A stretch of 64,000 bases of DNA from Demequina soli (GTDB lineage Bacteria; Actinomycetota; Actinomycetes; Actinomycetales; Demequinaceae). The stretch is from positions 483,460 to 547,459 of the forward strand of contig NZ_BBLZ01000001.1 of the NCBI RefSeq assembly GCF_000971195.1, in the 5' to 3' direction. Positions 38,218-39,960 of this stretch are shown here, piece after piece. The first letter of the stretch is position 1, and each line of letters starts with the position of its first letter. Position numbers and translations under genes: made by a program. The notes beneath the pieces were generated by a model. It did no database searches and was not told the DNA's origin. It saw only the letters and a list, made by a program, of their open reading frames with translations.

Positions 38218-38324
38218 GACCGTCCCCCACACGCGACGGCGGATGAATCGCTTCACCGATGCAACTCGCGTCGCGAACCACGACCCGGGCGCGCACGCAC
38301 GCAGAATCCGTGTGGGGCGCGGTC
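38218..38324 (-). repeat. 107-bp MITE-like palindromic element, family A copy 3
   Basis: 15-bp ends GACCGTCCCCCACAC and GTGTGGGGCGCGGTC pair with two mismatches. Read in reverse it contains CGGATTCTGC near one end and GCGAGTTGCATCGG in the middle. It lies between yaeQ and the tRNA gene. Confidence 0.8.
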
Positions 38325-38372
38325 GCGGGCGCGGGCGCGGGCGCGGTCGCGGGCTGCGCCGCGCGCCGCGCG

Positions 38373-38446
38373 TGCCCCCGGCGGGGTTCGAACCCGCACT
38401 GGGCCGGGTTTAAGCCGGCTGCCTCTGCCAGTTGGGCTACGGGGGC
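38373..38446 (-). tRNA. tRNA with anticodon UAA (Leu-like) lacking a long variable arm
   Basis: The minus strand folds as a full cloverleaf: 7-bp acceptor GCCCCCG/CGGGGGC, a D arm with AACTGG in the loop, anticodon stem GCCGG/CCGGC around loop CTTAAAC (anticodon UAA), a 5-base variable loop CCAGT, T stem GCGGG/CCCGC around TTCGAAC, and discriminator A. CCA is not encoded. Bacterial leucine tRNAs are class II with a long variable arm, so this 74-nt class I molecule is atypical for UAA. The fold is certain; the amino acid is not. Confidence 0.85.
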
Positions 38447-38448
38447 GG

Positions 38449-38474
38449 GACGATGCGGCGGTCGCCGCATCGTC
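38449..38474. terminator. Hairpin from an inverted pair of the 10-mer motif, downstream of ppx
   Basis: GACGATGCGGCG (38449-38460) and CGCCGCATCGTC (38463-38474) form a perfect 12-bp stem with a 2-base spacer (a 4-base loop in practice), 6 bases beyond the leftward ppx stop and just before the tRNA. Confidence 0.6.
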
Positions 38475-38480
38475 GCGGGC

Positions 38481-39434
38481 TCAGCCGCGTTCGGCCGCCG
38501 AGAAGGCGATGCCGTCGAGGATGTCGTGCTCGCTGGTGACCACGTGCGGCAGGGCGCCGCCCGCCCCGACGACGGCGGAGCGCACGCGCGTCATCACGGT
38601 GCGCCACACGAGCGCGCCCGCGCCGATCACGTCGACGCGGCCCGGGTGCATGAACCCCAGCGCGGCGCGCTCGGTGCGCGACGCCGCGAGCAGCTCGTCG
38701 CACGCGCGGATCGCGTCGTCGATGTCGATCACGGCGCCGTTGATGGCGTCGCGGTCGTACTCGGGCAGGCCGAGCGCGTGCGCGGTCACGGTGGTGATGG
38801 TGCCCGCCAGCCCCACGAGCGTCGCGGTGCGCTCGACGGGGACCCCGGCGAACGCCATGTCGATCGCGTCGTTGACGTCGGCCTCGGCCGCCGCGACCTG
38901 CTCGGCGGACGGCGGGTCGCCCGCGAGGTGACGCTCGGTCATGCGCACGCAGCCGACGTCCATCGAGTGCGCGGCCTCGGGGCGCGACACCCCGAGCACC
39001 ACCTCGGTCGAGCCGCCGCCCAGGTCCACCACCAGGAACGGCGCGTCGTGCGCCGCGTCGAGGGCGCCGGTCGCGCCGCGGAAGGACAGCGCGGCCTCCT
39101 CGGCGCCCGAGATGACCTCGGGCGTGACGCCGAGGCGCGACTCGACGCCCGTGAGGAACGCGTCGCGGTTGCGGGCGTCCCGGGTCGCCGAGGTCGCGAC
39201 GAAGCGGATCGCCTCGACGCCGTGCTCGCGGCACCGCTCGGCGTAGTCGTCGACGGCGGCGAACGTCCGCGACAGCGCCTCGGCGGAGAGCTCGCCGGTC
39301 CGGTCCACGCCCTGGCCCAGCCGGACCACGGTCATGGTGCGCACCACGTCGGTGAGCGTCCCGGTCTCGAGGGAGACGTCGGCGATGAGCAGGCGGATCG
39401 AGTTCGTCCCGCAGTCGATGGCGGCTACACGCAT
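38481..39434 (-). CDS. ppx: Ppx/GppA family exopolyphosphatase
   Basis: A 317-residue single-module member of the actin-like phosphatase superfamily, hydrolysing polyphosphate and/or pppGpp. Motifs AAIDCGTNSIRLLIAD (phosphate-1) and FLVVDLGGGSTEVV (phosphate-2) are intact, as is GLAGTITTV. It is the short actinobacterial PPX form without the C-terminal HD domain. A -10 TAGTCT (complement at 39441-39446) lies 6 bases before the ATG. The mfd-mazG-eno-divIC-DUF501-ppx order is conserved in actinobacteria. Confidence 0.9.
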   Translation of the reverse strand: MRVAAIDCGTNSIRLLIADVSLETGTLTDVVRTMTVVRLGQGVDRTGELSAEALSRTFAAVDDYAERCREHGVEAIRFVATSATRDARNRDAFLTGVESRLGVTPEVISGAEEAALSFRGATGALDAAHDAPFLVVDLGGGSTEVVLGVSRPEAAHSMDVGCVRMTERHLAGDPPSAEQVAAAEADVNDAIDMAFAGVPVERTATLVGLAGTITTVTAHALGLPEYDRDAINGAVIDIDDAIRACDELLAASRTERAALGFMHPGRVDVIGAGALVWRTVMTRVRSAVVGAGGALPHVVTSEHDILDGIAFSAAERG

Positions 39435-39447
39435 GACGTCAGACTAG

Positions 39448-39960
39448 TCAGACCTCGACCGCGCACGTGCAGCGGTCGGGGCTCCACGAGGCGGAGATCA
39501 GCGCGAGCGCCTCGTCGCCGAGCGGGTTGACGCCCGGGCCCGCGGCGAGCGCGTGGCCCACGAGCACGTGGAGGCACTTCACGCGGTCGGGCATGCCGCC
39601 GGCCGAGATGCCGTGGATCTCGGGCACGTCGCCCAGCTCGTAGCGCTCCTCCAGGTAGCGCTCGTGCGCCGCGCGGTAGGCCGCGACGAGCTCGGGCTCC
39701 TCGCCGGAGGTCAGCCTCGCCTGCATCTCCTTCATCACGCCGTTGGCCTCGAGCGTCGAGACCGCGGCGACGGCGTCGGGGTGCGTGAGGTAGTACTGCG
39801 TCGGGAAGGGCGTGCCGTCGGGCAGCCGCGGCGCGGTGTGCACCACGGTGGGGTTGCCGCACACGCAGCGGGCCGCGATGGCGACGATCCCGCGCGGCGC
39901 GCGCCCCAGCTGGGCGGCGAGGACGGCGACATCGCGCTCGGTGGCAGGGGTGTCGTTCAC
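39448..39960 (-). CDS. DUF501 family protein
   Basis: A 170-residue soluble protein with a CVCGNPTVV motif and TPFPTQYYLTHPDAVAAVSTLEA, then GGMPDRVKCLHVLVGHALAAGPGVNPLGDEAL, which is the DUF501 core. Clustered Cys and His residues (CVCG, KCLHVLVGH, CTC) hint at metal binding. The function is unknown, but the gene always travels with ppx and divIC in actinobacteria. The GTG start follows a -10 TAGAAT (complement at 39967-39972) by 6 bases. Confidence 0.88.
   Translation of the reverse strand: MNDTPATERDVAVLAAQLGRAPRGIVAIAARCVCGNPTVVHTAPRLPDGTPFPTQYYLTHPDAVAAVSTLEANGVMKEMQARLTSGEEPELVAAYRAAHERYLEERYELGDVPEIHGISAGGMPDRVKCLHVLVGHALAAGPGVNPLGDEALALISASWSPDRCTCAVEV

Follow-up and report, generated by a model that had tools for sequence, protein, structure and literature searches.

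Cytosolic leucine tRNAs of bacteria are described in textbooks and reviews as class II molecules, which carry a long variable arm. The tRNA-Leu(UAA) encoded by bldA in Streptomyces belongs to this class and is the sole decoder of UUA in a high-GC actinobacterium, where this codon is very rare. The human mitochondrial tRNA-Leu(UUR) has no long arm and is charged by leucyl-tRNA synthetase (LeuRS) through A73 and A14 (PMC9976931). In the tRNA clusters of the Mycobacterium mucogenicum clade, a tRNA-Leu(TAG) with a short variable loop is found beside the normal class II TAG tRNA (PMC6582537). The leucine determinants of E. coli include A73, A15-U48, G18-G19 and A20a; leucylation did not correlate with how the long arm is folded or with its sequence, truncated armless forms were active, and the LeuRS was reported to be independent of the long variable arm (PMC9976931). 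In some bacterial LeuRS, the arm makes contact with the C-terminal domain (PMC5059758).

The genome of Demequina soli contains the gene of a real, conserved leucine tRNA for the rare codon UUA, which has no long side arm. The gene is located on the minus strand at positions 38373-38446 of the window, the whole 64,000-nucleotide stretch of contig NZ_BBLZ01000001.1 that was analyzed. Its sequence, 5'-GCCCCCGTAGCCCAACTGGCAGAGGCAGCCGGCTTAAACCCGGCCCAGTGCGGGTTCGAACCCCGCCGGGGGCA, has the anticodon UAA and is 74 nt long without the CCA end, which is not encoded by the gene. ARAGORN calls it tRNA-Leu(taa) at 38372-38446 on the minus strand. The Rfam model RF00005 matches positions 38373-38446 of the same strand over 71 of its 71 positions, with a score of 55.7 bits (E-value 2.2e-10); this is above the gathering cut-off of 29, so the gene counts as a tRNA. 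All pairs are formed in the acceptor stem (7 of 7), the anticodon stem (5 of 5) and the T stem (5 of 5). The T loop is TTCGAAC, the discriminator is A (A73) and the variable loop, CCAGU, has 5 nt, compared to the 10 nt or more that define a class II arm. The molecule thus combines an anticodon of the leucine set with class I architecture. The initial annotation had described a complete cloverleaf with the same discriminator, T loop and 5-base variable loop, and ARAGORN, Rfam and the sequence all agree with that description.

The assembly comprises 3.0 Mb in 16 contigs and is 99.3% complete. It contains 48 tRNA genes, which were found with RF00005 and then read individually, and the gene described here is the only UAA tRNA among them. 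The leucine set consists of three class II tRNAs (UAG, GAG and CAG) with variable loops of 13-16 nt, and two class I tRNAs (UAA and CAA) with 5-nt variable loops. The class I CAA gene (G000:C13:361719-361792, which is L061:6001-6074) is 81% identical to the UAA gene. Both UUR decoders of the genome are therefore without a long variable arm. A normal class II tRNA-Leu(UAA), for which the initial annotation had recommended a search, is not present among the 48 genes, nor is a class II CAA tRNA, and a class II UUR tRNA pattern has no match in the genome. The same pattern has one match, a CAA form, in 37 genomes of the genus.

The M. mucogenicum tRNA-Leu(TAG) is likewise an actinobacterial tRNA in which a leucine anticodon is joined to a class I body. 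However, it is an extra copy in a cluster, whereas the UAA tRNA is the sole decoder of its codon and occupies a conserved chromosomal site. The human mitochondrial tRNA-Leu(UUR) is also a UUR decoder without a long arm, but it is organellar and has an unstable anticodon stem, whereas the UAA tRNA is encoded on a bacterial chromosome and forms a firm, GC-rich cloverleaf.

For a comparison of identity determinants, all tRNA species of the genome were placed on the standard numbering. A73, A15-U48 and A20a occur together in exactly five species, namely all leucine tRNAs of the genome, with long and short variable loops alike. The UAA tRNA has the bacterial leucine set A73, A15-U48, G18-G19 and A20a, the same as in the canonical class II tRNA-Leu of E. 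coli and in the UAG, GAG and CAG tRNAs of this genome. Furthermore, the D stem of the class I leucine tRNAs still has three pairs and a 13/22 mismatch, as in the class II leucine tRNAs; in other class I tRNAs of the genome, e.g. Lys(CUU), it has four pairs. Apart from the shorter variable loop (5 nt compared to 13-16 nt), the UAA tRNA differs from the class II form in having C12-G23 and C13.A22 in place of G12-C23 and G13.A22, and the mismatch is C.A in the class I and G.A in the class II leucine tRNAs. The simplest reading of these features would be that the arm of a leucine tRNA was lost and that positions 12-23 and 13 were adjusted.

The class I body could also mean that the tRNA carries another amino acid, in which case UUR codons would be reassigned or mistranslated. 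A35, A36 and A73 also belong to phenylalanine identity, and the UAA tRNA overlaps with it in these positions. Nevertheless, the leucine determinants are present and are exclusive to leucine tRNAs; C12-G23 and the 13/22 mismatch resemble leucine tRNAs, whereas the tRNA-Phe of the genome has a four-pair D stem. UUR codons, moreover, stand at leucine positions in relatives. In aligned genes, to which the D. soli genome itself contributes few TTG sites and no TTA sites, the relatives' TTG is opposite leucine in 140 of 160 cases and TTA in 19 of 21, which is no worse than the 1231 of 1456 for the control codon CTG. In a pairwise comparison with one relative from the genus, TTG is opposite leucine in 10 of 15 cases for the D. 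soli genome and in 32 of 42 for the relative, and there are four TTG-TTG pairs. A different amino acid is therefore extremely improbable. A leucine isoacceptor, the first of the possibilities raised by the initial annotation, is what the determinants and the codon positions support.

A bacterial-type LeuRS of 833 aa is encoded in the genome (L258:784-3285, minus strand). The leucine-specific domain is missing from the LeuRS of the genus, as it is from AgnB2 (PDB 5ah5) and from H. pylori LeuRS; in most other families of the order the enzyme has a length of 960-1020 aa. A connection between the class of the tRNA and the domain make-up of the LeuRS was considered and rejected. Genome G041 has a LeuRS without the leucine-specific domain, yet a class II CAA tRNA, and G044 has both class I tRNAs, yet a long LeuRS.

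We consider it highly likely that the cell uses the UAA tRNA, with its class I body, as the ordinary leucine tRNA for UUA, and that the ordinary bacterial LeuRS charges it. The transcript would be trimmed, receive its CCA end from the nucleotidyltransferase and be charged with leucine. The LeuRS would recognize the A15-U48 hinge pair, the discriminator A73 and, in the D loop, G18-G19-A20a, all of which are common to the class II leucine tRNAs, and the long arm would be dispensable for the enzyme. As the variable arm is touched by the C-terminal domain in some bacterial LeuRS, the charging efficiency of the UAA tRNA may differ from that of the class II tRNAs. The charged tRNA would read UUA and, by wobble, probably also UUG. 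Because bacterial LeuRS is known not to need the long arm, the tRNA very probably works normally. Its function is ordinary; its architecture departs from the textbook rule for bacteria. An unusual mode of charging, as suggested by the initial annotation, need not be invoked, since the E. coli LeuRS is independent of the arm (PMC9976931) and the leucine determinants are present.

TTA is the rarest codon of the genome. It occurs 5 times in 100,398 codons if a strict gene filter is applied, and at most 13 times in about 123,000 codons of predicted genes with a looser filter, where some cases are doubtful: two of the 13 are open reading frames of the window, in which the TTA is probably outside the real gene. 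This confirms the expectation that UUA is very rare, and the list of TTA genes is a handful that includes a type ISP restriction enzyme. The UAA tRNA is therefore, like bldA of Streptomyces, the sole decoder of a very rare UUA codon in a high-GC actinobacterium. The two tRNAs differ in that bldA is class II (the class II UAA pattern is matched in family f21), whereas the D. soli tRNA is class I.

This likeness raises the question of a regulatory leucine tRNA, charged with leucine, whose level or charging limits the translation of a few UUA genes. The confinement of the rarest codon to very few genes, including that of the type ISP enzyme, would suit such a role. Loss of the arm could also weaken LeuRS binding. 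However, no regulatory gene set was found among the identified UUA genes, the rarity of TTA fits the base composition and is expected from it, and the class I CAA tRNA, which decodes the commoner UUG, has the same body. Thus a bldA-like role is very unlikely. As for a decoder of a special gene set, also suggested by the initial annotation, this is true only trivially, because UUA codons are so scarce.

The tRNA is widespread. A match is present in 56 of 59 relatives. Among 109 genomes of the order, about 90 have a class I UAA tRNA, about 36 a class I CAA tRNA and 27 both, according to a manual tally of exact patterns, which miss variants and leave the UUR tRNAs of some families unassigned. In most of the other genomes of the order, the class I UAA tRNA is paired with a class II CAA tRNA. 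The reverse arrangement, a class II UAA with a class I CAA, occurs in two genomes of family f3 (G054 and G323), a hint that the two isoacceptors may have exchanged anticodons or genes. In family f4 (G039, G055, G311, G324 and others), both UUR patterns, class I and class II, are without a match. Of 246 genomes sampled from the phylum, 52 contain the class I and 183 the class II pattern. Public genomes, when scanned, gave at least 119 stretches with the class I pattern, from Mycobacterium, Nocardia, Corynebacterium, Gordonia, Arthrobacter, Cellulomonas and others, as well as from some metagenome-assembled genomes of other phyla; 79 of 80 among the matches listed fold as a class I tRNA-Leu. The initial annotation had considered that the gene might turn out to belong to a family of normal leucine tRNAs in the phylum, and this is largely what was found.

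In 131 distinct class I UUR sequences, the pairs of the acceptor, anticodon and T stems are each standard in 98-100%, with many compensatory changes. The anticodon loop and A73 are nearly invariant, and the variable loop has 5 nt in 126 sequences and 6 nt in five. The D arm is present in 36 of 36 sequences found by BLAST, which are the informative ones in this respect because the arm was built into the search pattern for most others. In these alignments the stems are held by compensatory change, i.e. by selection on structure.

The gene follows ppx, beside which the initial annotation had placed it, on the same strand and at a distance of 34 nt. This neighbor (38481-39434, minus strand) encodes a Ppx/GppA phosphatase (Pfam PF02541, E-value 5.7e-58), is syntenic in relatives and is preceded by a gene for a DUF501 protein (39448-39960, minus strand; PF04417, E-value 5.5e-39). 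Among 127 tRNA loci, ppx is directly upstream on the same strand in 38 (median gap 48.5 nt), farther upstream on the same strand in 24 and on the opposite strand in one; the 64 stretches without ppx are often short on that side. This linkage points to vertical inheritance of the tRNA within the actinobacteria.

Related class I leucine tRNAs also occur in phages, plasmids and tRNA arrays, and the gene could on that account be seen as a pseudogene, a mobile passenger or a tRNA-like RNA with no role in translation. Against this stand its position as the only UAA tRNA of the genome, the compensatory changes in three stems and the stable chromosomal site near ppx, and we give this explanation next to no credence. 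The regulatory or non-translational tRNA proposed in the initial annotation likewise finds no support in a sole UAA tRNA with stems under compensatory change. The ordinary leucine tRNA for UUA remains the preferred reading.

The gene was said to lie between two repeat elements, which is roughly correct for D. soli. An inverted repeat with 15-nt arms and a 2-nt spacer, found by repeat search and folding, lies between ppx and the tRNA (38446-38477), and GGGCGC-rich direct repeats (38315-38362) follow beyond the 3' end of the tRNA. The flanks vary among relatives, in which neither the hairpin nor the downstream repeats are conserved. The hairpin is strong and has no T run; it is possibly the end of the ppx transcript. 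Promoter and terminator scans gave no hits. ARAGORN also reports a tRNA-Arg(gcg) at 38316-38406 on the plus strand; this call is spurious, as it overlaps the UAA gene, lies in the GC repeats and has no counterpart in the Rfam search.

Genes of this type are named tRNA-Leu in databases, yet no paper on their class I architecture was found: the search covered the openly available literature, with subscription journals mostly outside it, and gave nothing on bacterial UUR-Leu tRNAs of class I. In most sampled genomes of the order, UUA is decoded by a class I leucine tRNA, and in many the same is true of UUG. These genomes represent a natural experiment that agrees with the in vitro work on E. coli, where LeuRS has no need for the long arm, and they add chromosomal bacterial cases to the armless mitochondrial tRNA-Leu. 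Methods that recognize leucine tRNAs by their variable arm can be expected to fail here. Within this one order, either UUR isoacceptor can have a class I or a class II body, so that loss or replacement of the arm is open to direct study. A more speculative and rather unlikely extension is that in these actinobacteria the UUR leucine tRNAs are labile in their structural class, which would move from one of the isoacceptors, UAA or CAA, to the other, with one LeuRS serving two bodies; where LeuRS makes no contact with an arm, UUR leucylation would fall first in leucine shortage, a built-in, bldA-like control of UUA genes.

The expectation that similar genes are already annotated as tRNA-Leu elsewhere is borne out by phage records and by ARAGORN calls on relatives. 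The phage tRNA-Leu genes that resemble class I leucine tRNAs come from phages of Corynebacterium, Gordonia, Mycobacterium, Streptomyces and Erwinia and from cyanobacterial phages (records H16-H55). A similar tRNA is located at L318:4001-4073 on the Mycolicibacterium plasmid pTY66_01; it is absent from the plasmid's gene table, which has no RNA genes. A tRNA array in a Chloroflexi genome (L159:6477-7937) contains class I leucine tRNAs with the anticodons GAG, CAG, UAA and CAA, and class II UUR tRNAs are present elsewhere in the same genome.
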